Shown here piece after piece: positions 1,061 through 49,849 of a stretch of DNA of 64,000 nucleotides. This DNA comes from Sulfuritalea sp. (GTDB lineage: Bacteria; Pseudomonadota; Gammaproteobacteria; Burkholderiales; Rhodocyclaceae). Below the pieces are notes generated by a model, which was not told the DNA's origin, made no database searches, and saw nothing but the letters and a program-made list of their open reading frames with translations. Position 1 is the first letter of the stretch. Each line of letters opens with the position of its first letter. Both the position numbers and the translations under genes were made by a program. The DNA is taken from the NCBI GenBank assembly GCA_030680805.1, contig JAUXUK010000016.1:1-64000 (forward strand), written 5' to 3'.

Positions 1061-1531
1061 TCATTCCTTGTTGGGAAGGGGGGTTGATTGAAGGCGGGCG
1101 TCAAGTTCCCGCAGGACGCTCAGAGTCGTTTTCCAATCTGAAAGGGCGACACCCCTTGCCAATGCCTTGGACCAGACTGCATGCAAGCCCATGGCTTTGC
1201 CGTACGCTTCCTGCCCTGCCGGGGTGAGTTCATAGAGCGGAGACCTGAGATTGCGCGGGTTCTCGTGGACAGCGAGCAGTTGATCCTTGATGGCGAGATT
1301 GAGCTGTTTCTGAGCCCCTTGGCGCGAGATACCCATTGCTGCGGCAATCTGCGGGCAGGACATGGCATCTCCTGACAAGGCGAGTGCGCCGAGCACTTGC
1401 CAGCGTGCGCTGGACATTCCCAGCGGGGCGACCATCTGATTGCCTTTTTCGAGGAGAAGCGAGTTGAGACGAAATATCTCAAGCATGATCTCTGTCAAGA
1501 CCTCGCGTTGAGTGTCACCGGTTTTGGTCAC
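1061..1531 (-). CDS. MarR-family transcriptional regulator
   Basis: A 156-residue winged-helix repressor. The N-terminal dimerisation helix (LTEIMLEIFRLNSLLLEKGN) is followed by the helix-turn-helix around residues 58-80 (CPQIAAAMGISRQGAQKQLN) and a wing ending SPLYELTPAGQEAY. The start is GTG at 1531, preceded by AAGGAG with 6-base spacing. Directly upstream lies a 38-base perfect palindrome, the obvious candidate operator, so autoregulation of this two-gene operon is likely. The ligand cannot be read from sequence; members of this family often sense aromatic compounds or oxidants. Confidence 0.9.
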   Translation of the reverse strand: MTKTGDTQREVLTEIMLEIFRLNSLLLEKGNQMVAPLGMSSARWQVLGALALSGDAMSCPQIAAAMGISRQGAQKQLNLAIKDQLLAVHENPRNLRSPLYELTPAGQEAYGKAMGLHAVWSKALARGVALSDWKTTLSVLRELDARLQSTPLPNKE

Positions 1532-1564
1532 AGCGGCTCCTTATCTGATCAATGCATGGGCACC

Positions 1565-1602
1565 TTGACAACCAGTTTCCATTAATGGAAACTGGTTGTC
1601 AA
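1565..1602. promoter_or_regulatory. 38-base perfect palindrome, probable MarR operator
   Basis: The left arm TTGACAACCAGTTTCCATT (1565-1583) is the exact reverse complement of 1584-1602. It ends 34 bases before the marR start. On the minus strand the arm begins TTGACA, so the palindrome overlaps a plausible -35 element and binding would block transcription. Function is inferred from position and symmetry. Confidence 0.75.
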
Positions 1603-1885
1603 CTGCTTCGATAGTTATGTTCGATAGCTATCGCAACGTTTGTCGACCCAGTTCATCCAACATGCGCCGCTGATTGCTCCGGCCGAGAACCAGCCGCCCA
1701 AGGCTGGGCGCCAATGAGCGTGGCAAGTTCTCTCCGCTCGGCCCCGGCCGGCATTGTCGCCGCCCCGCCATCCGCAGCGGCGAGGAAAGCGCACTTTGCT
1801 TGACTGCCCTGCTGCGCAGGGGGTTCATCAGTACCGAGTTGTAAGCCATTGAGCTGGCTCGGTGATGGCATCCCTCATCCTCGTC
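1603..1885. other. Intergenic stretch with no supported gene
   Basis: Between the palindrome and the antitoxin promoter I see only a short symmetric AT element near 1609-1632 (TTCGATAG occurs twice, the second inside CGATAGCTATCG). Reading frames of 70-90 codons exist on the minus strand, but they lack ribosome binding sites and recognisable motifs and look like accidental high-GC frames. Confidence 0.5.
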
Positions 1886-1914
1886 TTGACATCCGACGCG
1901 CATTCAATCATGAT
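1886..1914 (+). promoter_or_regulatory. Putative sigma-70 promoter of the toxin-antitoxin operon
   Basis: TTGACA at 1886-1891 and CATGAT at 1909-1914 with a 17-base spacer, 43 bases upstream of the antitoxin ATG. The match to consensus is good for the -35 and moderate for the -10. Confidence 0.6.
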
Positions 1915-1916
1915 GA

Positions 1917-1935
1917 ACTGGTCAGTCTGACTAGT
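1917..1935. promoter_or_regulatory. Putative antitoxin operator (19-base inverted repeat)
   Basis: ACTGGTCAGTCTGACTAGT is palindromic around its central T except for one mismatched pair. It lies just downstream of the predicted -10 and 22 bases before the antitoxin ATG, the usual place for the autorepression site of a Phd/YefM-type antitoxin. Confidence 0.55.
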
Positions 1936-1956
1936 TTGTTGGCGAGGAGCGTCATC

Positions 1957-2199
1957 ATGCACACATGGCAACTGCAGGAGGCCAAGAGCCGCTTCAGCGA
2001 GTTGGTGGATTGCACTCTTACCGAAGGGCCGCAGCTTGTGACGCGGCGCGGTGCGGAGGCGGTCGTGGTAATGGCCGCGCCGGAATACCGGCGCCTGCTG
2101 GCCGGGCCGTCCTTGCTGGCGGTGTTGAATGGCGCGCCGCGCGGCGAAGCGCTGGATATTTCCCGTTCCGCTGAAGCGGTGCGAGCACTCGACTTGTGA
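1957..2199 (+). CDS. Phd/YefM-family antitoxin
   Basis: An 80-residue antitoxin beginning MHTWQLQEAKSRFSELVDCT, the typical Phd/YefM opening, followed by GPQLVTRRGAEAVVVMAAPEY, which forms the rest of the DNA-binding fold. The C-terminus is the toxin-binding tail. The ATG at 1957 has GAGGAG 8 bases upstream; a longer frame starting at 1849 is ignored. The stop overlaps the toxin start by 4 bases (GTGA), so translation is coupled. It is expected to neutralise the adjacent PIN toxin and to repress the operon through the nearby inverted repeat. Confidence 0.9.
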   Translation: MHTWQLQEAKSRFSELVDCTLTEGPQLVTRRGAEAVVVMAAPEYRRLLAGPSLLAVLNGAPRGEALDISRSAEAVRALDL

Positions 2200-2618
2200 A
2201 GTATCTGCTCGACACCTGCGTGCTGTCGGAATTGGTCAAGACGGCGCCGGAGGCCAGGGTGTTGGCGTGGATCAATGCGCGTGCCGAAAGCGATCTGCAT
2301 GTTGCCGCGATGTCGCTGGCGGAACTGCGTCGCGGCGTGGCGCGCTTGCCCGCGTCGCGCCGCAAGACCGATCTGACGGCATGGCTTGAACAATTGCAGG
2401 CCGGGTTTGCCGACCGGATACTGCCTTTTACACGCGAGACGGCCGCTTACTGGGGCGAGATGTGCGCCCGCGTCGAGGCTGACGGGCGCACCATGGCTGC
2501 CTTCGATTCGATCATCGCGGCGACGGCGGTTGAACACGGGTTGGTCCTGGTGACACGCAATGACCGCGACTTCGTGGCGGCGCTGCCCGTGGTGTTCAAT
2601 CCCTGGGCGATCGCATAA
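2196..2618 (+). CDS. vapC: VapC/FitB-type PIN-domain ribonuclease toxin
   Basis: A 140-residue PIN-domain protein. The acidic metal-binding residues are visible: D6 in MKYLLDTCVLSEL, E43 in LAELRRGVARL, D104 in AAFDSIIAATA and D123/D125 in TRNDRDF. Toxins of this family are Mg-dependent endoribonucleases that stop translation by cutting tRNA or rRNA; the target here is unknown. The GTG start overlaps the antitoxin stop. The pair sits between ilvD and lgt, housekeeping genes often near one another in related bacteria, so it probably arrived by transfer together with the marR patch (inference). Confidence 0.92.
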   Translation: MKYLLDTCVLSELVKTAPEARVLAWINARAESDLHVAAMSLAELRRGVARLPASRRKTDLTAWLEQLQAGFADRILPFTRETAAYWGEMCARVEADGRTMAAFDSIIAATAVEHGLVLVTRNDRDFVAALPVVFNPWAIA

Positions 2619-2647
2619 GACGCCCTCACGTCCGGTCAGGCTGCCAC

Positions 2648-2672
2648 GCCGTATCGCCGGCGCCGACTTTTG
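2648..2672 (+). repeat. Short dispersed repeat copy
   Basis: CGCCGTATCGCCGGCGCCGA followed by CTTTT: a 25-base intergenic copy 24 bases before the lgt start. It marks the right border of the accessory patch. Confidence 0.6.
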
Positions 2673-2696
2673 GCTCGCGGTTAGAATCCTTCAATC

Positions 2697-3482
2697 ATGC
2701 TGATTCATCCCCAGTTCGACCCCATCGCCATTTCCATCGGTCCGCTCGCCGTGCGCTGGTACGGGCTCATGTACCTCGCCGGCTTCATCGCCTTTCTCTG
2801 GCTCGGCAAGCGGCGCGCGCAATCGCAGCCCTGGCATGGCATGAATGCACAGGATGTCGACGACCTGCTGTTCTACGGCGTACTCGGCGTGGTGCTGGGC
2901 GGCCGGCTGGGTCAGGTGATCTTCTACGAGCCGGGCTACTACCTCGCGCATCCGCTGGAAATCCTCGCGGTATGGAAGGGCGGCATGGCCTTTCATGGCG
3001 GCATGCTCGGCGTGTTCGTGGCGATGGCGCTGTGGGCGCGCAAGTCGGGCAGGACGTTCTTCCAGGTCACCGACTTCATCGCGCCGCTGGTGCCGCTGGG
3101 CCTCATGGCCGGGCGCATCGGCAATTTCATCAACGGCGAACTGTGGGGTCGTGCGGCCGATCCCGCCTTGCCCTGGGCGATGATTTTTCCGCACGTCGAC
3201 AGTTTGCCGCGCCACCCGTCGCCGCTGTATCAGGCGGCCGGCGAAGGCTTGCTGCTGTTCGTCGTCCTGTGGCTGTTTTCGGCGCGCCAGCGGGCGGTGG
3301 GCGCGGTGTCGGGCATGTTCATGATCGGCTATGGCGCGCTGCGCTTCATCGCCGAATATTTTCGCGAGCCGGATCACGGCATCTTCGGCGTCTCCTACGT
3401 CGTCAGCATGGGGCAGTGGCTGTCGCTGCCGATGATCCTGTTCGGGCTCTGGTTGTTGCTGAAGAAGCCGGCCCGTCGGTGA
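2697..3482 (+). CDS. lgt: Prolipoprotein diacylglyceryl transferase
   Basis: A 261-residue polytopic inner-membrane enzyme that moves the diacylglyceryl group of phosphatidylglycerol onto the lipobox cysteine of prolipoproteins, the first step of lipoprotein maturation. The sequence shows the conserved N-terminus ([17 protein letters not shown]), the [12 protein letters not shown] segment and the Lgt signature [18 protein letters not shown] around residue 140. About seven hydrophobic segments span the protein. The length is usual for the family. The ATG at 2697 has no strong ribosome binding site. Confidence 0.97.
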
Positions 3483-3652
3483 GCGAAGCTCTCAGCAAGG
3501 GCAAGGACGTGAGCGGCGAACACAGGAGCGCATCGCCAGGCAGCGCGTACCGGTTGTTCATGCGACGGCTTGCTGGAACCGTGGCGGTTCTTTCGGGCGG
3601 TGCCTCGCTGCTGTGTTTCCTGACGGCGAGGCTGCCGCCGCTGGACGACTGA
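3479..3652 (+). CDS. Possible small single-span membrane protein
   Basis: A 57-codon frame beginning GTG inside the lgt stop (GTGA overlap). The product starts [20 protein letters not shown], then has one hydrophobic segment (about residues 33-50, [20 protein letters not shown]) flanked by arginines, and ends LPPLDD. The coupling to lgt and the positive-inside hydrophobic segment argue for a real small protein, but no family is recognised and there is no clear ribosome binding site. It could be chance. Confidence 0.35.
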
Positions 3653-3764
3653 GCCCGGGAACGCCGTTGTCCGCGCCGAGGCCGACCGGCATCAGGCGGC
3701 GTGCGCTTCCAGCGCCTGGTCGATTTCGCTCTTCATGCCCATGGCGTCTTGTCCCCCTTTGGAT

Positions 3765-4649
3765 TCATTCGGGCGCGACGACGCAGCGATCACGCCCGGC
3801 CCTTTTCCCCTCGAACAGCGCCTTGTCGGCGCACTCGATCGCTGCATGCAGTTCCATATCCTCTTTCACCCGGCACAGGCCCATGGTCACCGTCATGGCA
3901 AGGGGTCCGGTTTGCGGAACCATGACAGGAGTCTCGCGCACCAGATTGATCAAGCGTTGTGCGGCCAGAGCGGCCTCTTCGGCAGATCTCGTTTGCATCA
4001 GCAGGAGAAACTCTTCGCCACCGAAGCGATACAACGGCTGTCCCGGCCGTATGTGGCGTTTCAGCGTGTCGGCCAGATGGACCAGGGCGATATCGCCCAC
4101 CGGATGACCGTGAGTGTCATTGATGTGCTTGAAGTGATCGACATCGATCACCGCCACGTAAAGCATCAGGCTGTTGCGCCTGCAAACCCTCTGTAGCTCG
4201 ATGAATTCCTCTTCGAGCCCGTAGCGCAGCGGCAGCCCGGTCAGGTGGTCGTGTCGCACGGCTGTGGCCAGGAACTGTGTCTTGAACTCGGCCAGCATAT
4301 GTATCAGCTCGGATTGCGTATCTTCGAAAACGTCCAGGTCGGCGCTTCGTCCCGGTCGTCCCGCCAGCACATCCTCGCAGATGGAACGAATGGCATCGTG
4401 CATGGATTGATGCACGGCCAGAAGTCGCTGCGTACGCGGCGCGCTCAGCTTTTCGAAAGCGGATTGCTTCGACACGAACCAGCAACCGAAACGGCACAAG
4501 GTGTGTGCTTCGGCAGCGAGCACGTCCTCGCCAGGGGAAGTGCGCAGTACCGCGCAGCGCATCACGCGGCGCGACCAGTTCAGGTGTGCCTCCACCGCCG
4601 CGTCGAGTTCGCTGGCGAAACTCTCCAATTCAGAAGACAAGTCAGGCAT
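3765..4649 (-). CDS. dgcZ: Diguanylate cyclase with N-terminal zinc-binding (CZB) domain, DgcZ-like
   Basis: A 294-residue cytoplasmic enzyme predicted to make cyclic di-GMP from GTP. The N-terminal CZB zinc-sensing domain shows its ligands: H22, C52 in the CRFGCWF motif, and H80/H84 in HQSMH. A GGDEF domain follows, with DHLTGLPLRYGL, VIDVDHFKHINDTHGHPVGD and the active-site variant GGEEF at residues 210-214. Architecture, order and length match E. coli DgcZ (YdeH), in which zinc inhibits the cyclase. The allosteric RxxD I-site is absent (RPGQ at the equivalent place). I chose the ATG at 4649; the frame extends to a TTG at 4685. The gene stands alone, convergent to lgt. Confidence 0.9.
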   Translation of the reverse strand: MPDLSSELESFASELDAAVEAHLNWSRRVMRCAVLRTSPGEDVLAAEAHTLCRFGCWFVSKQSAFEKLSAPRTQRLLAVHQSMHDAIRSICEDVLAGRPGRSADLDVFEDTQSELIHMLAEFKTQFLATAVRHDHLTGLPLRYGLEEEFIELQRVCRRNSLMLYVAVIDVDHFKHINDTHGHPVGDIALVHLADTLKRHIRPGQPLYRFGGEEFLLLMQTRSAEEAALAAQRLINLVRETPVMVPQTGPLAMTVTMGLCRVKEDMELHAAIECADKALFEGKRAGRDRCVVAPE

Positions 4650-4888
4650 GTTGGTTGCTGTTCGTGATCCAGTTGTGTGCGCCAAGACGCTCCCGGCAAT
4701 CCTCCCGAAATGGCATCTTTTCCCTATGTCTAAAGTTAACGATACAGCGGAAAAACCATTCTGTGGGACCGGACGCCAGTACGGCGGTGCCAGTCCGGGA
4801 ATGTGGTCGATCGGTCATGAGCCTTGCGGCTGCACCATCGTTTCGCGGAGGGCTCTGGGTGCTGAGGAAGCATTTCCCGGTGCGCGTG

Positions 4889-5683
4889 TCAGGCAAGCCC
4901 CTCGCGCAAGGTGGCCAGATAGCGCAAGCCGGCAATTGCGCGACTGCCGTACCACGAGACCATTTCGCCGTCGATGCGGGCTACCGGTCGTTGCGCCAGC
5001 ACGCTGACCTCGGCCAGGTCGCGATCTGTGAAGGCATAGGGTTCCGAGGGCAGCAGCACGCGCTCGACATCCGCCAGCCACGGTGCATCCCATGCGAATT
5101 CCGGAAAGCGCGCTGCCGCTTGCGCCGGCAGCGTGTCCCAGCCGGCGGCAGCGAGCATGGCCGCAATGTAGGTGTCGCACCGGACGGTCATCCAGGGATC
5201 GCGCCAGATCGGATAGAGCACCGCCTCGCGGGGTAGCGTTGCCGTTACGGCAGCGAGGTGCGCGCGAGCGTCGCCAAACTCCGCCGCGAGTCGTGCGGCT
5301 TCGGCGTCGCGCCGGAAAATCGCGCCGAGCAGTGCGTACAGGGCGAGGTTGTCATCCACGGTCTGCGGATGCACGACCACCACCTGCGGCACGAACTGCG
5401 CCATGGCTTCCACGGCCTCGCGCCGGTTCTCGTCGATGTCGGCGATCAGGTGGGTCGGCGCCAGATTGCGAACCACATCGAGCTTGACGTCCTTGGTGCC
5501 GCCGACCTTGGGCACATGACGCAGAAGCTGCCGCGGATGGACGCAGAAACCGGTGCGACCGACCAGGTGATCGGCCAGCCCCAGGTCGCAGATGAGTTCC
5601 GTCAGGCTCGGCACCAGGCTGACGATGCGCGGCACGCCCTCGCAGGGCAGATGTTCGCGTCCGAGCGCGTCGACCAGCGCCAT
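4889..5683 (-). CDS. BtuF/FepB-type cobalamin-binding-like protein without signal peptide
   Basis: A 264-residue helical-backbone metal-receptor protein of the periplasmic-binding-protein superfamily. Family marks are RIVSLVPSLTELICDLG near residue 19, GRTGFCVHP, the KVGGTKDVKLDVVRNLAPTH segment and a long middle helix. Relatives bind vitamin B12 or ferric siderophores for ABC importers. Here the N-terminus (MALVDALGREHLPCEGVPR) is hydrophilic, with no export signal, and no permease or ATPase is nearby, so it may act in the cytoplasm or be mis-started. The ATG overlaps the stop of the upstream SDR gene (TAATG), indicating cotranscription. Confidence 0.8.
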   Translation of the reverse strand: MALVDALGREHLPCEGVPRIVSLVPSLTELICDLGLADHLVGRTGFCVHPRQLLRHVPKVGGTKDVKLDVVRNLAPTHLIADIDENRREAVEAMAQFVPQVVVVHPQTVDDNLALYALLGAIFRRDAEAARLAAEFGDARAHLAAVTATLPREAVLYPIWRDPWMTVRCDTYIAAMLAAAGWDTLPAQAAARFPEFAWDAPWLADVERVLLPSEPYAFTDRDLAEVSVLAQRPVARIDGEMVSWYGSRAIAGLRYLATLREGLA

Positions 5684-6444
5684 TACAGGTCTAGGCCGCG
5701 CGGTTTTCTTCCGCCGCGGGCGAAAATCGCGTCGAACACGGGGTTGGGCAGCAGGCGCATGAGCTTGGCGACCACGCCCATCTGCCAGGGAATCACCGTG
5801 TAACTGGTGCCGCCTTCGATGGCGCGGGCGAAGCGCCGGGCGGCTTCATCGGCGGCGAGGATGAAGGGCATCGGATAGGAATTCACCGCCGTCATCGGTG
5901 TCGCGATATAGCCGGGCACGAGGGTGACCACCTTGACGCCGCTGCCGTGCAATTCGATGCGCAGGGATTCGAGGTAGGCGATGCTGGCGGCCTTCGATGC
6001 CGAATAGGCGCCTGCACCCGGCAGGCCGCGAATCCCCGCGACCGAGGCAATGCCCACCAGGCGGCCGCTGCCGCGTGCCTTCATGGCTGCAACGAAGGGT
6101 TGCAGAGTCTGAGCCATGCCCATCACGTTGGTCTGGAAAACGCGCTGGAAAGCCGGCAGGTCATCGGCTTCATCGGCCAGCGTGCCGACCGAGATGCCGG
6201 CATTGGCGATGACGATGTCGGGGCAACCGTGGCGCGCGATGAAATCCGCCGCCGCGGCCCGCAGCGCCTCGCCATCGCCCACATCCAGCGGGTAGCAGAG
6301 GTGCGTGCCGGGAAGGGCTGCAGCCAATTCGGCAAGCCGATCCCGGCGTCGCGCCGCCAATCCTAGGGTGGCGCCCGCCGCCGCGTAATTGCGGGCCAGC
6401 GCTTCACCGATGCCGCTCGATGCGCCGGTCAAAAAAATGCGCAC
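5683..6444 (-). CDS. Short-chain dehydrogenase/reductase (SDR)
   Basis: A 253-residue NAD(P)-dependent oxidoreductase. The Rossmann glycine motif TGASSGIGEALARNYAAAGA is at the very start, NAG at IVIANAGIS, the catalytic serine in GIASVAGIRG and the YxxxK pair in AYSASKAA. The C-terminal third, with a hydrophobic segment and PGYIATPMTAVNSYPMPF, resembles the YqjQ/DltE-like lipid- or fatty-acid-acting SDRs. The GTG start at 6444 is chosen because the dinucleotide-binding motif begins 6 residues later; the open frame continues out of register into dsbA. It lies 12 bases after dsbA and overlaps the next gene. Substrate unknown. Confidence 0.88.
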   Translation of the reverse strand: MRIFLTGASSGIGEALARNYAAAGATLGLAARRRDRLAELAAALPGTHLCYPLDVGDGEALRAAAADFIARHGCPDIVIANAGISVGTLADEADDLPAFQRVFQTNVMGMAQTLQPFVAAMKARGSGRLVGIASVAGIRGLPGAGAYSASKAASIAYLESLRIELHGSGVKVVTLVPGYIATPMTAVNSYPMPFILAADEAARRFARAIEGGTSYTVIPWQMGVVAKLMRLLPNPVFDAIFARGGRKPRGLDL

Positions 6445-6455
6445 GGGATCGGGGA

Positions 6456-7097
6456 TTACTTGCGGCCTGCTTCGGCGCGGACGCGCGCGATCAACTGGTC
6501 GATGTTGGCCAGCAGCTGGTCGTAGTCGCCGGGCGTCAGCGCCAGGTATCTGCCATGCACCATTACGGCGGGGACGCCTGTCAGCCCGCCTGCCAGCGTC
6601 AGTTCGCGCGCCTGCTGCACGCGTGTCTGGATGCCGAAGGACGACCATGTTTCGGCGAACTTCTTCGCCTCGACGCCCTTCTTCACCACCCATTCGAACA
6701 TGATCTTTTCGTCATCCAGGCGCAGGCGCTCAACGTGGATCGCGTGGAACACCTCGCCGTGCATTATCTCCAGCTGATTCATGGCTTCCAGGGTGTAGTA
6801 CAGCCTGGCGCCGGGCAACCATTTGTTGTTGGGGAATATCGCCGGTACGCGACGAAAGCTGGCATCGGCGGGCAGTTTCTTCACCCATGCCGCCAGCGCC
6901 GGCTCGAAATCGAAGCAGTGCGGGCAGCCGTACCAGAAAAACTCGGTGATCTCGATCTTGTTCTTGTCGGCCGCCAGCGGCGGATTGATCACGCGGAAAT
7001 CAAGTCCCTCTTTCAGTTCGGCCGCTGCTGCGCCGACTGCGGTCAGCAATCCAAGCGTCGCCAGAATTGCTGCCAGAATTGTCCGCCATGCCCTCAT
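6456..7097 (-). CDS. dsbA: Thiol:disulfide interchange protein DsbA
   Basis: A 213-residue periplasmic oxidase that introduces disulfide bonds into exported proteins. A signal peptide ends near residue 26 (GLLTAVGAAAAELKEG). The thioredoxin fold has active-site C58-P-H-C61 in EFFWYGCPHCFDFEP and the cis-proline loop GLTGVPAVMVHGRY. The place and order (argS, SPOR protein, dsbA, SDR) are usual for betaproteobacteria. It starts 9 bases after the stop of the SPOR gene, so the genes are likely one operon. Identification is firm. Confidence 0.96.
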   Translation of the reverse strand: MRAWRTILAAILATLGLLTAVGAAAAELKEGLDFRVINPPLAADKNKIEITEFFWYGCPHCFDFEPALAAWVKKLPADASFRRVPAIFPNNKWLPGARLYYTLEAMNQLEIMHGEVFHAIHVERLRLDDEKIMFEWVVKKGVEAKKFAETWSSFGIQTRVQQARELTLAGGLTGVPAVMVHGRYLALTPGDYDQLLANIDQLIARVRAEAGRK

Positions 7098-7106
7098 TGC
7101 CGACTC

Positions 7107-7784
7107 CTATTCCTTCTGCTTGATAACGGTGCCCTGCACTCCATTTTGTGACAGCAAGGTGCGCGCCTTGTTCATTTCCTCGGGACTGCGGAAGGGGCCG
7201 ACACGCACGCGATGCATGGTGCCCTTTTCGGGAATGCTGACTTCCTGGACGCTGGCTTCAAGGCCGGTGAGCGCGAGCTTGGCCTTGAGGTTGTCGGCAT
7301 CGGGAGCCTTCTGGAAAGCGCCCACCTGGAGGAAGTAGATATCTGTCGGCACCGGCTTGGCGTCGACCACGGGCGCCGCCGGTGCGGCCGGGGTCGCCGG
7401 TGTTACCGAAACGGCCGGAGGCGGCGCGGCAGAACCGGAGCCCGCCGGCTGCTTGCCTTCAAGGATGCCGTAGAACTCGAAGCGCTGCTTGTCGTTGGGC
7501 TTGTCGCCGGGCTTGCCGGGCAGGGGCGCCGGAATCTGTGCGGTGCCGGCTGAACCGGGGGGCGCGGCCTTGTCCTTCTCGGCCTTGGGTGCGCCTTCGT
7601 ACTTGTTGAGGAAGGGCAGCGGGGACTTGTTGAGATACAAAACCACGCCGAAGGCGATCGACACGCCGATGACCAGGCCGATAAAAACGCCAAGCAGGGT
7701 GCCGCCGCCGCTCTTCTTTTGCGATGACCGATTGCCCGACGCCGGGCGCGAGGTCTTGTCGGAATTTCTGTCGAATTTGCCCAT
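7107..7784 (-). CDS. SPOR-domain (FtsN-like) cell-division protein
   Basis: A 225-residue bitopic membrane protein. A short basic cytoplasmic N-terminus (MGKFDRNSDKTSRPASGNRS) precedes one membrane span (about residues 29-50, LLGVFIGLVIGVSIAFGVVL). A Pro/Ala-rich periplasmic linker follows, then a C-terminal SPOR domain (about residues 150-225, YFLQVGAFQKAPDADNLKAK ... VGPFRSPEEMNKAR) that binds denuded septal peptidoglycan. This is FtsN architecture. The ATG at 7784 has AGGA upstream; the frame is open 22 codons further but without signals. It lies downstream of argS as in relatives. Confidence 0.9.
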   Translation of the reverse strand: MGKFDRNSDKTSRPASGNRSSQKKSGGGTLLGVFIGLVIGVSIAFGVVLYLNKSPLPFLNKYEGAPKAEKDKAAPPGSAGTAQIPAPLPGKPGDKPNDKQRFEFYGILEGKQPAGSGSAAPPPAVSVTPATPAAPAAPVVDAKPVPTDIYFLQVGAFQKAPDADNLKAKLALTGLEASVQEVSIPEKGTMHRVRVGPFRSPEEMNKARTLLSQNGVQGTVIKQKE

Positions 7785-44481: not shown

Positions 44482-45054
44482 ATGCAAATCCTGTTGTCGC
44501 ACTGCCGCCTGTGGCTGCTGGCGCTGTTCATGTTTCCCCTCGCCGGATTCGCGGCTCCGACCCTTGCCCAGAATGCCGCCGACCCCGCCTTCGAGGCGGC
44601 GCTGGGCCATTTCAACCGTGCCCGGCAGGGCGAGGCGGATCAGATAGAAGCCACCATCGCGGCATTTCAGGTCGCGCCCGCCAACCCGGCGCTGCAGCCG
44701 CTGTATTCGGCGTATCTGGGTAGCGCCCATGCGCTCAAGGCCAAGGCGGCGTGGCTGCCGTGGAACAAGATGAAGCTCTCCGAACAGGGCCTCGATCACA
44801 TCGACCTGGCACTGGCCGCGTTGCGCCCCGAACACGACCGCGTGCTGGTGCACAACACGCCGGCGAGCCTGATGACGCGCATGGCGGCGGCGGCCACCTT
44901 CGTCGCGCTGCCCGACGGCCTTTTCCATCGTCGCGCCGGCGGCAAGGCGCTGCTCGCCGAGATCCGGCGCAGCCCGCTGCTGGCTGAAACGCCGGCCGGC
45001 TTTCGCGCCGAATTGAGCGCCATCGAAGCCCGCCTGCGGGAGACCGAGAAATGA
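44482..45054 (+). CDS. Secreted helical protein heading a Lol-like operon
   Basis: A 190-residue exported protein. The signal peptide runs to about residue 30 (LWLLALFMFPLAGFAAPTLA-QNAADP), with no lipobox cysteine. The mature part is alpha-helical with TPR-like character (FEAALGHFNRARQGEADQIE, PALQPLYSAYLGSAHALKAK). No named family recognised. The ATG has GGAGG 8 bases upstream. Its stop overlaps the ATPase start (ATGA), making it the first gene of the five-gene operon 44482-48964. It may be a periplasmic adaptor for the transporter (inference). Confidence 0.85.
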   Translation: MQILLSHCRLWLLALFMFPLAGFAAPTLAQNAADPAFEAALGHFNRARQGEADQIEATIAAFQVAPANPALQPLYSAYLGSAHALKAKAAWLPWNKMKLSEQGLDHIDLALAALRPEHDRVLVHNTPASLMTRMAAAATFVALPDGLFHRRAGGKALLAEIRRSPLLAETPAGFRAELSAIEARLRETEK

Positions 45055-45731
45055 GCACCGATACCTGCACTGTCCGCCTGACCGGCTTGCGCAAGAGCTA
45101 CCGTGTAGGCGAGGCCAGTGTCGAGGCCCTGAAAGGCGTCAGCCTCGATGTGCGCAGCGGCGAGATGGTCGCGCTGACCGGCCCGTCCGGCAGCGGCAAG
45201 AGCACGCTGCTGAACCTGTGCGGCCTGATCGACACGCCGGATGCGGGCAGCCGCGAACTGGGCGGCATCGTCATCGACGGCCTCGATGAACTCGGTCTGA
45301 CGCGCCTGCGCCGGGAGCAGGTCGGTTTCATCTTCCAGGGCTTCAACCTGGTACCGGTGATGACCGTGTTCGACAACGTCGAGTACCCGCTGATGCTGCT
45401 CGGCATGCCAGCCGGCGAGCGCAAGGAGAAGACGATGACGGCACTGCAACGGGTGGGGCTGGAAACCTTTGCCCGGCGCCTGCCCGACGCACTTTCCGGC
45501 GGCCAGCGCCAGCGCGTGGCGATCGCCCGCGCCCTGGTCAAGTCGCCGGCGCTGGTGATTGCCGACGAGCCCACGGCCAACCTCGATTCGACCACGGCGC
45601 GGCAGATCGTCGATCTGCTGCATGAACTGGCGCACGAGCGCAATGCCTCGGTGGTCGTGGCGACCCACGACGAGCGCATGAGCTCGCACTGCGACCGCGT
45701 GCTCCACCTGATAGATGGAGAACTGCAATGA
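45051..45731 (+). CDS. ABC transporter ATP-binding protein (LolD/MacB type)
   Basis: A 226-residue ATPase of the LolD/MacB/FtsE group. Walker A is LTGPSGSGKSTLLNLCGLID, the Q-loop GFIFQGFNLVPVMTVFDNVE, the signature LSGGQRQRVAIARAL, Walker B LVIADEPTANLDSTTA and the switch His in VVVATHDERM. It drives mechanotransmission-type transporters rather than conventional import. The paired permease follows with an ATGA overlap. It is a paralogue rather than LolD itself, because its operon partners differ. Confidence 0.93.
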   Translation: MSTDTCTVRLTGLRKSYRVGEASVEALKGVSLDVRSGEMVALTGPSGSGKSTLLNLCGLIDTPDAGSRELGGIVIDGLDELGLTRLRREQVGFIFQGFNLVPVMTVFDNVEYPLMLLGMPAGERKEKTMTALQRVGLETFARRLPDALSGGQRQRVAIARALVKSPALVIADEPTANLDSTTARQIVDLLHELAHERNASVVVATHDERMSSHCDRVLHLIDGELQ

Positions 45732-46939
45732 AATGGCTGATGTTTGCCTGGAAGAACGTCATGCGCAACCGCCGCCGCTCGCTGACGGCGATGCTGATCA
45801 CGGCACTGGGAACCGCGGCGGTGCTGGCCAGCGGCGGCTTCGCGCTATTCACCTACGAATCACTGGAGGAAATGACGGCGCGCGATACGGGCCATGTCGT
45901 CGTCGCCCATGCGCGTGGTTTCGACGGCGATGAAGACGTGCCGCTGCAGCATGGCCTGGCTGATTCGGCCGCGCTGGCGGCGAAGTTCGCGGCACTGTCC
46001 GGCGTCCGTGCCGTGGCGCCACGCGCGCAGTTTTCCGGCCTGATCTCCAACGGCGACAAGTCGGCGGTGTTCGTCGGCAGCGGCGTGGTGCCCGAGATCG
46101 ACTTTCGCCTGCGCGGCCCGCAGATGAACTTCATCGCCGGACAGCCGCCCGTGGGCAACGCGCCGCAGCCGGAAGTGGTGATCGGCAACGAACTGGCGCG
46201 CCTGATGAAAGCCAAGGTCGGCAGTTCGCTGACCCTGCTGGCCACCACTACCGAAGGCAATCTGAACGCAGTGGATGTCATCGTCAGCGGCATCGCCAGC
46301 GTCGGCGTGCCGGAAATCGACAAGCGACTGGTACTTGCCGATCTTGCTGCGGTACAGAAACTCCTGCTCAGCGACAAGGTCGGCACGCTGTCGATCTACC
46401 TGAAGGAAACCGCGGAGACGGAAGCCACCGCCGCGCGCGTCAGGGAAATGCAGCCCGGCCTTGCGGTGAAAACCTGGCGCGACCTGGCGGTGTTCTACCA
46501 GGCCGTGCGGGCGCTCTATAACCGCATCTTCGGCATCCTCGGGGTGATCATGATCTGCATCGTGCTGTTCGCCATGAGCAACACGCTGGGCATGGCCGTC
46601 GTCGAGCGGACGCGCGAGATCGGCACGCTGCGTGCCATCGGCACGCTGCCGGCGGAGATCGTGCGCAACTTCGTCTTCGAGGGCATGGTCATCGGCGCCG
46701 CCGGCGCGCTGCTCGGCATGTTGCTGGCGGGCGTCGCCACGGTGTTCCTGCTCTTCGCCGGGATCGAGATGCCGCCGCCGCCGGGGCGTTCGGCCGGCTA
46801 TCCCTTGTTCCTGAGTTTTTCGCCACTGCTGTATGGCGCGAGCGCCCTCGTGGTGATTGTGCTTGCCGCAGGCGCGGCATGGCTGGTCAGCCGCCGCGCC
46901 GCCAACAAACCCGTTACGGAGGCTCTTGCTCATGTTTAA
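45728..46939 (+). CDS. FtsX/MacB-like ABC permease (LolC/E-type)
   Basis: A 403-residue permease with the FtsX layout: one N-terminal span (RRRSLTAMLITALGTAAVLA), a periplasmic domain of about 220 residues, and three C-terminal spans from about residue 265 (LGVIMICIVLFAMSNTLGMA, GMVIGAAGALLGMLLAGVAT, ASALVVIVLAAGAAWLVSRR). ERTREIGTLRAIGTLPAEIV is the typical cytoplasmic coupling segment. It would extract or move a substrate at the outer face of the inner membrane. It overlaps its neighbours at both ends (ATGA; 8 bases). Confidence 0.92.
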   Translation: MKWLMFAWKNVMRNRRRSLTAMLITALGTAAVLASGGFALFTYESLEEMTARDTGHVVVAHARGFDGDEDVPLQHGLADSAALAAKFAALSGVRAVAPRAQFSGLISNGDKSAVFVGSGVVPEIDFRLRGPQMNFIAGQPPVGNAPQPEVVIGNELARLMKAKVGSSLTLLATTTEGNLNAVDVIVSGIASVGVPEIDKRLVLADLAAVQKLLLSDKVGTLSIYLKETAETEATAARVREMQPGLAVKTWRDLAVFYQAVRALYNRIFGILGVIMICIVLFAMSNTLGMAVVERTREIGTLRAIGTLPAEIVRNFVFEGMVIGAAGALLGMLLAGVATVFLLFAGIEMPPPPGRSAGYPLFLSFSPLLYGASALVVIVLAAGAAWLVSRRAANKPVTEALAHV

Positions 46940-47672
46940 GCGAATTGCATTACTGATGTTGGCGTCGATGAGTCTTGCGGCATTGGCGGCGGAGGACGAC
47001 AAAGTGAAGTCCCTGCTCAAGCAGGCCGATGCCTATCGCCTGGCCATGGAATCAGGGCGCGTCGAAACCGAGGTGCGCACCTTCAAGGCCGGCGTGCCGG
47101 ACAAGACGCGGCTCTACGCTGTCTATCTCAAGCCCGGCCATCGTTCGCTGGTGCTGTTCCGCACCGCGAGCGAGCGCGGACAGAAGATGCTGATGCTCGG
47201 CGACGACTACTGGCTGATGATGCCCTCCAGCCAGCGGCCACTGCGCATCACCGCCATGCAGAAGCTGCTCGGCGAAGCCTCGACCGGCGACGTGGCGACC
47301 ATGACCTGGGGCGAGGACTACGATGGCACACTGTCCGGTGAGGAGACCATCGATGGCGTGCCCTGCCTCAAGCTCGATCTGACGGGTCAGCGCAAGGGCG
47401 TCAGCTATCCGCGCATCGTGCTCTATCTGGCGAAGAAGGGCCATCATCCGGTGCAGGCCGAACTGTACGTCGCCTCGGACAAGCTCGCCAAGCTGGCGCA
47501 CTTCAAATTGGGCGAGGTCGATGGCCGCAAGCAGGTGACGGTGATGACCCTGATCGATCATCTGCAGAAGGAGCGTTCGACCGAAGTGCATTACCTGTCG
47601 CGCACCGACAAGACGCTCTCCGACGACTACTTCAATCCGGCCTTCCTGGTGCGGGCGGATGTGACGCAATGA
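46932..47672 (+). CDS. LolA-like outer-membrane lipoprotein-sorting protein
   Basis: A 246-residue periplasmic protein of the LolA/LolB-fold group (COG2834-like). The signal peptide is MFKRIALLMLASMSLAALAA; the body has KPGHRSLVLFRTASERGQKM, DDYWLMMPSSQRPLRITAMQ, GTLSGEETIDGVPCLKLDLT and ELYVASDKLAKLAHF, a half-open beta-barrel pattern that binds acyl chains. It is the probable soluble carrier between the permease and the outer membrane. The start lies within the permease gene (ATGTTTAA) and the end overlaps the next gene (ATGA). Confidence 0.85.
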   Translation: MFKRIALLMLASMSLAALAAEDDKVKSLLKQADAYRLAMESGRVETEVRTFKAGVPDKTRLYAVYLKPGHRSLVLFRTASERGQKMLMLGDDYWLMMPSSQRPLRITAMQKLLGEASTGDVATMTWGEDYDGTLSGEETIDGVPCLKLDLTGQRKGVSYPRIVLYLAKKGHHPVQAELYVASDKLAKLAHFKLGEVDGRKQVTVMTLIDHLQKERSTEVHYLSRTDKTLSDDYFNPAFLVRADVTQ

Positions 47673-48964
47673 GATCGCCGCCTCGCCATCGCCAGCGCGG
47701 TGCGTCCCTTCGGGAAGTTTTTCAGGTTCTGGCCGGAGTGTCGGCACTGATGCTGACGCTTCCCGCCAGTGCCGAGGATGGCGCGACGGATTTCGGCTGG
47801 AACACGCGCTTCGTCGGCGAAGGGCGCGAACCGCGGCGCGACAGCCCGTTCGCGGCGGGAATGGATCTGACCAGCTTCGGCCGCGATCGCTACCGCATCG
47901 AGCAGGAATTGCGCGGTCGCGCCGGGCCGGTGTCGCTGCTGCTCACCGCCACCGAGTCCGCGCAGGAGGGCTCCAAGCCTAACGGGCGCTTCGTCGCCAA
48001 CGAGGCATACGCCGATTTCAGCGTCGGCGGCGAGCGCTTTACGACCGGCAAGAAAGTCCTGTCCGGCGATGTCGGCTACGCCTTCCGGCCGATCGACGTG
48101 CTGCAGCGCGAAAGCCGCATGCAATTGCTTGCGCCGCCACTGGAGGGCATCCCGATGCTGAGCTGGGACAACTTCTCGACCGACGGCGCCTGGTCGGTCG
48201 TAATCGCCAATCCGGGTCACCAGCGGCGTAACGAGGCGCGCGAAGACGGATCGGTGGCCTTGAAGCTCTATCGCCGTGTCGCCAGCGCCGACTTTTACGG
48301 CGTGTTGCGCAACTCGACGCGCTACGGCTCCGAACTCGGCGTGGCGACGTCCTGGGTGCCGGACGACGCGCTGGAACTGCATGCCTCCATGCTGGTGCAG
48401 AAGCGCGGCGAGCGGCGCGTGCCGTTGGCGGACACGGCGTCGATCGGACTGCTGCTGGCGGCGGACAGCGCGCTTGTTACCGAAGCGATCAACTCGCCGC
48501 GCAAGGCGCTGGTGGGCGGCACGTGGACCACTGAAGGCGGCTTTTCGGTGCTCGGCGAATTCTGGTGGGACGGCACGGCGCCGGCCGCTACGGATTGGCA
48601 GCGATTGAAACGGCAGGCCGCGCAACGGGCGGCGCTGATCGGCGTGCCGGGCGTTCCCGCAGCGGCTGTCGCCGGCGCAACGGCGGCATCGACGCGCATG
48701 TTCGATCAGGGCAACCTCGCGCAACGCGGCATGCTGGCGCGTCTGGCGTGGAGCGATCCGGGTGGCCGCGTGTCGGCATCGGCCGACCTGCTGAGATCGA
48801 TGGGAGATGGTGGCTGGACCCTGACCACCTCGGTCGGCTGGCAAGGCGAGAAGTTCAGGATCGATGCCGGTTTGCGCCGTTACGGCGGCCCCGCCGACTC
48901 GGCTTACCGCTTGCTGCCCGAACGTGCGGCAGCCTTTGTCGGACTCAGCCTGGCCTACCAGTAA
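47669..48964 (+). CDS. Outer-membrane beta-barrel-like protein, last gene of the Lol-like operon
   Basis: A 431-residue exported protein (signal region VFQVLAGVSALMLTLPASA, cut near EDGATDF). The mature chain alternates polar and apolar residues with many aromatic-ended strands (RYRIEQELRGRAGPVSLLLT, GWTLTTSVGWQGEKFRIDAG) and ends FVGLSLAYQ, so an outer-membrane barrel is likely. No named family recognised. It overlaps the preceding LolA-like gene by 4 bases and runs 20 bases into the 3' end of nudB on the other strand. A repeat-like string encodes VASADFYG at 48272. Confidence 0.8.
   Translation: MRSPPRHRQRGASLREVFQVLAGVSALMLTLPASAEDGATDFGWNTRFVGEGREPRRDSPFAAGMDLTSFGRDRYRIEQELRGRAGPVSLLLTATESAQEGSKPNGRFVANEAYADFSVGGERFTTGKKVLSGDVGYAFRPIDVLQRESRMQLLAPPLEGIPMLSWDNFSTDGAWSVVIANPGHQRRNEAREDGSVALKLYRRVASADFYGVLRNSTRYGSELGVATSWVPDDALELHASMLVQKRGERRVPLADTASIGLLLAADSALVTEAINSPRKALVGGTWTTEGGFSVLGEFWWDGTAPAATDWQRLKRQAAQRAALIGVPGVPAAAVAGATAASTRMFDQGNLAQRGMLARLAWSDPGGRVSASADLLRSMGDGGWTLTTSVGWQGEKFRIDAGLRRYGGPADSAYRLLPERAAAFVGLSLAYQ
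48272..48296 (+). repeat. Short dispersed repeat match inside the barrel gene
   Basis: CGCCGTGTCGCCAGCGCCGA followed by CTTTT: an exact match to the intergenic copy at 43831, here in frame and encoding RRVASADF. Confidence 0.6.
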
Positions 48965-49397
48965 CTCGCTGCGGCAAGTCGAGGATGGCGTCGCGGTTGG
49001 TCCACGAAAAACAGGCCTCGGCGGCTTCCCGCCAGGGTAGCCAGCGCCAGGCGAGATGCTCTTCCGGCGCGATGTTCACCGGGCCTGGTTCAGGCACGCA
49101 GAGGCTGAAGACGTGCTCGATATTGTGCGTGATGCCGGGTGCGTAGCGGTAGCGCCACTCGGTGAATATTTCGTAACGATTGTTGATTTGCCAATCGACG
49201 AAGTCGGTCGCGGCGGCATCGATGCCGGTTTCTTCGAGCACTTCGCGCCGCGCCGTTTCCAGCAGCGGCTCGTCGTCTTCCTGGCTGCCGGTGACCGACT
49301 GCCAGAAGCCGGGGTGGCGGGCGCGCTCGAGCAGCAGCACGTCGAGCGCCGCGGTGTGGATCACCACCAGAACCGAGACGGGCTTCTTGTATTTCAT
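48945..49397 (-). CDS. nudB: Dihydroneopterin triphosphate diphosphatase
   Basis: A 150-residue Nudix hydrolase that removes pyrophosphate from dihydroneopterin triphosphate in folate synthesis. The Nudix box runs from GSQEDDEP through LLETARREVLEETGI (about residues 37-59). The start MKYKKPVSVLVVIHTAALDV and the segment IEHVFSLCVPEP are typical for NudB. The ATG overlaps the barstar stop. Position next to aspS is usual. It overlaps the barrel gene tail by 20 bases. Confidence 0.93.
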   Translation of the reverse strand: MKYKKPVSVLVVIHTAALDVLLLERARHPGFWQSVTGSQEDDEPLLETARREVLEETGIDAAATDFVDWQINNRYEIFTEWRYRYAPGITHNIEHVFSLCVPEPGPVNIAPEEHLAWRWLPWREAAEACFSWTNRDAILDLPQRVTGRPG

Positions 49398-49849
49398 CAG
49401 CCCGGCTGGGGCACCGTCGGCAGCCAGGCAATGCCGTCGGCCTGCATGTCGACCAGGCACCAGAACGGGATGTCGTCCTCGCGCCAGATTGCGGCGGCGT
49501 CCTGGAAGGTCTGCATCAGCGTGACGAAATCAGCCTCGGCACGGCCATGGATGCCGTCGCAATGATCGAGGATGATCACATAGCCGGTGGCGGGCAACCA
49601 GCCCATGTCGAGCAGGCAATCGGTCAGCGCGTCCCAGTTCTGGCCGAACCATTCGGGAAAGCGCAGGGCATGGCCGAGCGCCGCCAGCATTTCGTCCTTG
49701 TTGCGCGCTGCGGCAAGATCGACCCGCAACACCAGGCAGCCCGCCGCACCCGCGCCGGCGAGAAGGTCGTCGATGGGCCCGTGAGGAAGGTGATGCACGC
49801 CGGCCTTCGCGGCATCGGCAAACAGATGTTCGTAGTGCGGGGCGCTCAT
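49397..49849 (-). CDS. Barstar-family ribonuclease inhibitor
   Basis: A 150-residue cytoplasmic protein with a barstar core (about residues 38-130): LVLRVDLAAARNKDEMLAAL, GHALRFPEWFGQNWDALTDC and LLDMGWLPATGYVIILDH. The FGxNWDALxD pattern is the family signature. It should bind and block the ribonuclease encoded directly upstream, protecting the cell before export. Stop/start overlaps (ATGA) link ribonuclease, barstar and nudB. Confidence 0.93.
   Translation of the reverse strand: MSAPHYEHLFADAAKAGVHHLPHGPIDDLLAGAGAAGCLVLRVDLAAARNKDEMLAALGHALRFPEWFGQNWDALTDCLLDMGWLPATGYVIILDHCDGIHGRAEADFVTLMQTFQDAAAIWREDDIPFWCLVDMQADGIAWLPTVPQPG

Follow-up and report, generated by a model that had tools for sequence, protein, structure and literature searches.

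A five-gene operon of Sulfuritalea with a LolA_like carrier and a predicted barrel: a candidate export line for a hydrophobic small molecule

Little is known about how the periplasm is crossed by hydrophobic products other than lipopolysaccharide (LPS), phospholipids and lipoproteins. Here, we analysed a five-gene operon in a 64,000-nucleotide stretch of DNA from Sulfuritalea sp. (family Rhodocyclaceae; GenBank assembly GCA_030680805.1, contig JAUXUK010000016.1, positions 1 to 64,000 of the forward strand), referred to below as the window. The operon encodes a secreted helical protein, an ATP-binding cassette (ABC) ATPase, an FtsX/MacB-type permease, a LolA_like periplasmic carrier and a predicted outer-membrane barrel (genes 1 to 5, respectively), and several described systems resemble it in part. 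In the Lol pathway of Escherichia coli, the Hook of LolC recruits LolA and is reported to be essential for lipoprotein trafficking, and its sequence varies widely (PMC10865981). AmeABCD of Castellaniella defragrans is made up of a DUF1302 barrel, a DUF1329 protein of the LolA superfamily, the COG4447 protein AmeC and an HAE3 RND pump; its deletion was reported to lower tolerance to apolar monoterpenes and to raise Nile Red accumulation slightly, while the ameABCD products were raised during growth on a monoterpene and ameB was required for growth on several (PMC6394551). The Borrelia cluster BBJ23–BBJ29 encodes two secreted TPR proteins, an ATPase, a single MacB-type permease, a LolA-like protein and a barrel, and was suggested by a paper of 2026 to be an exporter of a non-polar ligand (PMC13078400).

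The Sulfuritalea operon had originally been put forward as the best candidate in the window for an undescribed system. No description of it was found in open-licence PMC papers, but AmeABCD and BBJ23–BBJ29, as far as the cited reports describe them, share its layout. We favour, with moderate confidence, the reading that the operon is a self-contained line, driven by ATP, which exports across the envelope a small molecule that is acylated or hydrophobic in some other way; confidence is only moderate because both the cargo and the direction of transport are deduced from homologues and linked genes. On this reading, a presumably homodimeric ABC engine would draw a hydrophobic molecule out of the inner membrane for hand-over to the outer membrane, and the LolA_like protein would take it into its hydrophobic cavity and ferry it across the periplasm. 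The DUF1302-related barrel would then accept the cargo and release it into or through the outer membrane, while the secreted TPR-like protein may aid docking of the carrier or chaperone the cargo. Where a LytS/LytTR kinase and regulator pair stands beside the operon, it would control it.

Conservation of the five-gene cassette

Relatives of the carrier were collected by searching a six-sequence alignment against named genomes, which gave 286 sequences. The best 80 of the 286 were kept and joined to six earlier loci (two found through the barrel and four through the carrier), giving a set of 86. This selection is biased toward close relatives, and all counts are restricted to loci long enough to hold the gene in question. 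Genes 2 and 3 were both present in 80/80 loci with 2 kb upstream, gene 1 in 68 of the 76 with 3 kb upstream (it was not found in L005, L006, L008, L038, L048, L057, L058 and L076), and gene 5 in 79 of the 81 with 1.5 kb downstream (not found in L008 and L067). Wherever the genes were found, their order was invariably 1-2-3-4-5.

The reverse search, which started from the barrel (E ≤ 1e-5), matched 16 of 398 Pseudomonadota genomes, the window counted. All 16 carried the carrier gene within 12 kb of the barrel gene, and in 14 the two were adjacent. In the other two, G517 and G271, the distance was ≈12 kb and ≈5 kb, respectively, and the five genes and a kinase and regulator were all nearby, arranged as barrel-kinase-regulator-1-2-3-4 in G271 and split into two groups ≈7 kb apart in G517. 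The five-gene set is thus a real cassette, and the supposition that the barrel and helical genes belong with the ABC and LolA genes survived the counts in both directions. Its distribution is patchy, as seen both in the barrel search and in a single-sequence search for the gene order, which found it in 3 of 150 genomes (own genome included). The nearest carriers, at up to 93% identity, come from metagenome genomes of Sulfuritalea and other Rhodocyclales; others were found in Massilia, Pseudoduganella, Undibacterium, Rhodoferax, Thiomargarita and relatives, and Agarivorans. The cassette occurs in many Betaproteobacteria and some Gammaproteobacteria, and it is kin to transporter genes in lipopeptide- and polyketide-like clusters.

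The coordinates of the open reading frames (Table 1) bore out the prediction of an operon joined by ATGA or 8-base overlaps, three being of the first kind and one of the second. The ratio of nonsynonymous to synonymous substitution rates (dN/dS) against five relatives was 0.20–0.42 for gene 1, 0.15–0.28 for gene 2, 0.09–0.26 for gene 3, 0.125–0.31 for gene 4 and 0.19–0.52 for gene 5; with an overall range of 0.09–0.52, all five are therefore maintained as proteins. Chance open reading frames are ruled out by the overlaps, the selection and the conserved order combined, rather than by a formal chance test. A purine-rich cggagg stretch precedes the ATG of gene 1. The operon is flanked upstream by an Hsp20 gene on the opposite strand and downstream by a NUDIX gene oriented toward it, followed by a gene for a barstar-family protein; the five flanking window genes that were scanned against Pfam are of the Hsp20, NUDIX, barstar, amino-acid kinase and SlmA/TetR types.

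Table 1. Coordinates of the operon genes, their overlaps and other features discussed in the text
Feature	Stretch	Position	Strand	Length (residues)	Remarks
Gene 1, secreted helical protein	Window	44482..45054	+	190	Relatives TPR-like; N-terminal signal peptide, by eye
Gene 2, ABC ATPase, LolD/MacB-like	Window	45051..45731	+	226	ABC_tran
Gene 3, FtsX/MacB-type permease	Window	45728..46939	+	403	MacB_PCD + FtsX; without the LolC Hook stretch
Gene 4, LolA_like periplasmic carrier	Window	46932..47672	+	246	PF17131; signal peptide by eye
Gene 5, predicted outer-membrane beta-barrel	Window	47669..48964	+	431	Apparently far kin of weak-scoring DUF1302 proteins
ATGA overlap, genes 1/2	Window	45051..45054	+
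ATGA overlap, genes 2/3	Window	45728..45731	+
8-base overlap, genes 3/4	Window	46932..46939	+
ATGA overlap, genes 4/5	Window	47669..47672	+
Barstar-family protein gene	Window	49397-49849	-
Gene 1, tandem copies	L034 (Parabeggiatoa)	2225-3754
E. coli island	L116	6129-20922
MMPL + LolA_like frame	L156 (G016)	1408-5007	+	1199
Genes of the G020 context	L157 (G020)	3804-4631, 4654-6147, 6017-6802, 6869-7711

The helical protein and the predicted barrel

The window proteins of genes 1 and 5, which the original prediction placed in no recognised family, indeed matched no Pfam family at E ≤ 1, but their relatives are less isolated. At a threshold of E ≤ 0.1, 18 of the 59 members of the gene-1 family matched TPR_14, the best with E 2.5e-6. 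No TPR match was obtained with the window protein, and gene 1 is classed as TPR-like rather than TPR. A search of solved structures with the gene-1 profile returned only designed four-helix proteins (E 0.03–0.2). One locus, from Parabeggiatoa, has gene 1 twice in tandem, which calls to mind the Borrelia cluster with its two TPR genes.

Gene 5 is predicted, from sequence features, to encode an outer-membrane barrel. The C-terminal residue is F, Y or W in 51 of the 58 family members; by the same test it was aromatic in 6/6 E. coli barrels and in 3/31 other E. coli proteins. The window protein ends in ...LAYQ. The beta-amphipathicity score (z_beta) had a family mean of 1.33, with 24% of members above 2, compared to 1.22–4.18 for the six E. 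coli barrels; 2 of the 31 other E. coli proteins exceeded 1.33, so that the score separates the groups only weakly. The gene-5 profile was similar over nearly its full length to the barrel genes of a Burkholderia cluster (98.6% in profile comparison) and an Aliiroseovarius cluster (92.6%), and gave at most 0.42% with E. coli K-12 barrels and soluble proteins. No solved structure matched it at E ≤ 1. In one draft genome (L125), the barrel gene contains an in-frame TGA.

By profile comparison, gene 5 appears to be a distant cousin of DUF1302-like proteins without being a DUF1302 member by test. The window protein did not match DUF1302 (PF06980) in Pfam at E ≤ 1, and this family is absent from the five found among the 58 members (E ≤ 0.1). 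A group of weak-scoring DUF1302 proteins (L095–L100, 32–69 bits against a Pfam cut-off of 23.2) nevertheless gave 96.6% in hhalign (E 6e-10) when taken jointly, and 7–91% singly. Membership in classical DUF1302 was rejected, since L090–L093 matched at only 1.3%; the link is limited to the weak-scoring group, which itself matches the classical one at 39%.

Gene contexts, cargo and regulation

The cargo class is suggested by distant versions of the cassette, which lie near genes for acyl-chain, polyketide or lipopeptide synthesis in the five contexts examined, out of six distant loci (the sixth being L156). The first context, in Burkholderia arboris (L113), contains an ATPase, a permease, a LolA_like carrier and a barrel recognised by the gene-5 hidden Markov model (HMM; E 2.2e-16), in the vicinity of an AMP-binding enzyme with a DIP2-like domain, a fatty acid desaturase, an AurF-type enzyme, a pyridoxal phosphate (PLP) decarboxylase and a LysR regulator; a match to ketoacyl synthase (KAS) III was weak and below the cut-off. 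From its gene content, we infer that this is an afc-like N-acyl tetrapeptide cluster, such a peptide being the reported product of afc (PMC12186527, PMC6301696). In B. cenocepacia J2315, BCAS0219, which is entered as PF17131 (PMC7565204), lies between BCAS0208 (afcE) and BCAS0225 (shvR).

In Paraburkholderia, the context consists of a ketosynthase–ketoreductase–dehydratase protein and a phosphopantetheinyl transferase. An E. coli island next to ycdU/ghrA (L116 and L112) combines a fatty-acid/polyketide-like set (holo-acyl carrier protein synthase, ketoreductase, FabZ-like protein, acyl carrier protein, ketosynthases and malonyltransferase) with its own ABC-LolA-barrel transporter, and 375 of 5426 complete E. 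coli genomes had a match to this transporter stretch. Through an aminomethyltransferase gene, the island may also resemble the streptococcal cyl cluster. No description of the island was found in open-licence PMC literature. One record, NZ_CP134663.1, is labelled an E. coli plasmid, but at 4.9 Mb and with the ghrA context it is chromosome-like. In Aliiroseovarius, a ketosynthase gene lies ≈3.6 kb past the barrel gene. Finally, G020, from the window's own family, has genes for an ABC ATPase, a DUF1302 barrel and a LolA_like protein of divergent sequence; their neighbours encode a PEP-CTERM protein and an N-acyl amino acid synthase of the FeeM type. A lipoprotein, a lipid or a hopanoid-like compound had been suggested as cargo; judging by the genes linked to these distant versions, an acylated or polyketide-like small molecule is more likely than a lipoprotein.

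A number of observations weigh against the export reading. No recurrent cargo gene was found beside the core operon beyond the synteny of close kin, spurious frames included; since no biosynthesis gene is linked to it, the cargo class has to be taken from far homologues, whose carriers are only 27–30% identical, and the five contexts are a raw count of such neighbours. Their parts also differ. Gene 1 was not detected in the B. arboris locus, nor a permease in the 12-kb stretch of G020. The Paraburkholderia barrel gave 21% with the gene-5 profile in hhalign (E 2e-4) and was missed by the gene-5 HMM, and the barrel and helical genes of the E. coli island were not supported as homologues of genes 5 and 1 (0.06% and 0.07%). 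In the window protein alone, the barrel signal is weak (z_beta 1.16). In the afc cluster, the ABC transporter BCAS0204, which may or may not belong to the cassette, was reported to be dispensable for antifungal activity (PMC6301696). Open-licence literature yielded no experiment on a member of the exact operon family.

A kinase gene lies 3' of the carrier in 31 of the 67 loci with 4 kb after it, and a kinase together with a regulator in 30. Of these 30 pairs, 18 are co-directional with the operon and 12 face it. Each of the 32 regulators scanned contained a LytTR domain, and His_kinase (PF06580) was matched by each of the 33 kinases scanned, making these LytS/LytTR pairs, which probably control the operon in the relatives that have one. 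The window operon has no such pair, but two are encoded elsewhere in its genome. The pair on contig C70 shares 55% and 59% identity with the pair that accompanies the cassette in L026, compared to 32–38% (kinase) and 32–37% (regulator) for the second. Because it is so much closer, the C70 pair is likely the displaced partner of the window operon, its counterpart on another contig. Its four scanned neighbours (acyl-CoA-ligase-like, cyclase, rhodanese and ABC ATPase) gave no hint of the cargo.

These regulators could also fit a defence pump that is switched by LytS/LytTR and removes membrane-inserted toxic hydrophobes or foreign antimicrobial lipids or peptides. The frequent downstream pair and the close relationship of the C70 pair to that of L026 are consistent with such a role, as is the monoterpene tolerance conferred by AmeABCD (PMC6394551). 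However, the five cluster contexts point to the export of the cell's own products, and there was no resistance gene among the five flanking window genes scanned; we consider a defence pump unlikely.

Relationship to the Lol pathway and other transport systems

Gene 2 matched ABC_tran (E 2.3e-32) and has 43% identity with E. coli LolD across 213 residues. Its best NCBIfam match was LolD (TIGR02211), at 210 bits against an equivalog cut-off of 308, and that of gene 3 was lolCE (TIGR02212), at 101 bits against 362. Gene 3 is 20–22% identical to LolC, LolE and the LolC/E-like protein of its own genome. In the alignment, its Hook region (residues 167–179 of E. coli LolC) is six residues shorter than that of LolC and five residues shorter than those of LolE and the genome's LolC/E-like protein. 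The same shortening was seen in the 17 relatives examined, and the loop TxxGxLNAxD stands there in the window protein and in 19 of 20 aligned relatives, the exception being L048. A tree was rooted, by our choice, on LolC, LolE and the genome's LolC/E-like protein; across a long branch from these three stood gene 3 with its family, together with four permeases from the clusters. The gene-3 family profile scored higher with Borrelia BBJ27 (178 bits) than with the own LolC/E-like protein (119), LolE (90) or LolC (78), while the gene-2 family profile scored 243 bits with E. coli LolD and 193 with Borrelia BBJ26. Gene 4 matched only LolA_like (PF17131), at 126.5 bits (cut-off 30), and not the LolA family PF03548; its nearest solved chain was 3buu_A (NE2245, E 1.4e-27).

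With its permease and ATPase far below the Lol cut-offs and the LolC Hook absent in alignment, the operon is, at the level of sequence, not Lol. The genome encodes a separate LolA (the PF03548 copy, on contig C65), LolB and LolC/E-like permease, and the operon is therefore an additional line. Together with the strong co-occurrence, this upholds the picture of a dedicated line parallel to Lol, with one permease and a barrel.

A second Lol pathway would be a variation on this theme, in which the operon would sort a single special lipoprotein or a small class of lipoproteins, and the barrel would take the place of LolB, either as a receptor or as a factor for surface display. The best matches to LolD and lolCE and the LolA-superfamily carrier agree with this idea, and many Pseudomonadota are reported to use a single permease, LolF (PMC10865981). 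On the other hand, the scores are far under the Lol cut-offs, the reportedly essential Hook is absent in the alignment, the distant relatives adjoin acyl and polyketide enzymes, and the window cassette encodes no lipoprotein by lipobox pattern. (A simple count of this pattern in the first 60 residues found it in 5/59 relatives of gene 1 and 7/58 of gene 5.) Sorting of a special lipoprotein thus seems quite unlikely.

Many outer-membrane barrels act as uptake channels, and the barrel and carrier might import a hydrophobic compound or carry lipid from the outer membrane back to the inner one. The characterised permeases of the MacB/LolC type known to us are, however, all extractors or exporters, and the linkage in the five contexts is to biosynthesis and not catabolism. 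Despite the raised levels of the ameABCD products on a monoterpene and the need for ameB during growth on several (PMC6394551), uptake or recycling is very improbable. Still less credible is pure signalling, in which the ABC module would report the state of the envelope to the LytS/LytTR pair and move no cargo: the barrel gene does stand directly with the kinase and regulator in G517 and G271, and FtsX-type ABC modules such as FtsEX and BceAB act in signalling, but it is hard to see what a hydrophobic carrier protein would do in it, and 36 of the 67 loci with room have no kinase in that place.

Returning to the export reading, the nearest cases combine a similar periplasmic and outer-membrane pair with different engines. 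In G016 (L156), a single open frame with MMPL and LolA_like domains, which reads as a pump fused to its own carrier, is followed by a DUF1302 barrel. AmeABCD and G016 (RND/MMPL) on one side and the operon (ABC) on the other thus give two kinds of engine to the combination of a LolA-superfamily protein and a DUF1302-type barrel. We tentatively suggest that a LolA-fold carrier and a DUF1302-related barrel might form a general Gram-negative module for the hand-over of hydrophobic small molecules, with interchangeable RND/MMPL or ABC/FtsX engines. The operon would be its regulator-linked ABC version, a shuttle route beside the bridge-type (Lpt) and tunnel-type (TolC) routes. If the export reading is true, the compact cassette would offer a tractable system for the carrier-type route and would hint at a function for the LolA_like proteins of PF17131 and for DUF1302-like barrels.

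The transporter genes of the afc-like cluster share with the operon the ATPase, the permease, the LolA_like protein and a barrel recognised by the gene-5 HMM, but lie within a biosynthetic cluster and have no detected gene 1, and the cited parts of the afc papers give these genes no transport role. AmeABCD likewise encodes an inner-membrane engine, a LolA-superfamily periplasmic protein and an outer-membrane protein together, and its export of hydrophobic compounds is backed by a deletion phenotype (PMC6394551), but its engine is RND rather than ABC, its periplasmic partner is different, and gene 5 is far from classical DUF1302; no DUF1329-type carrier matching gene 4 was found in the short stretches beside L090–L093. 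The Borrelia cluster has the same layout, and its permease BBJ27 and ATPase match at 99.9% and 100% in hhalign, whereas BBJ28, BBJ25 and BBJ23/24 were not supported as sequence homologues of genes 4, 5 and 1 (<1%); its barrel is of the Omp85 type, as reported, and its host belongs to the Spirochaetes. Lol (LolCDE or LolDF, LolA and LolB) shares the FtsX-type permease, the LolD-like ATPase and the LolA-superfamily carrier, while in the operon a barrel replaces LolB, the permease lies on a long branch and has no Hook, and a TPR-like gene is added.

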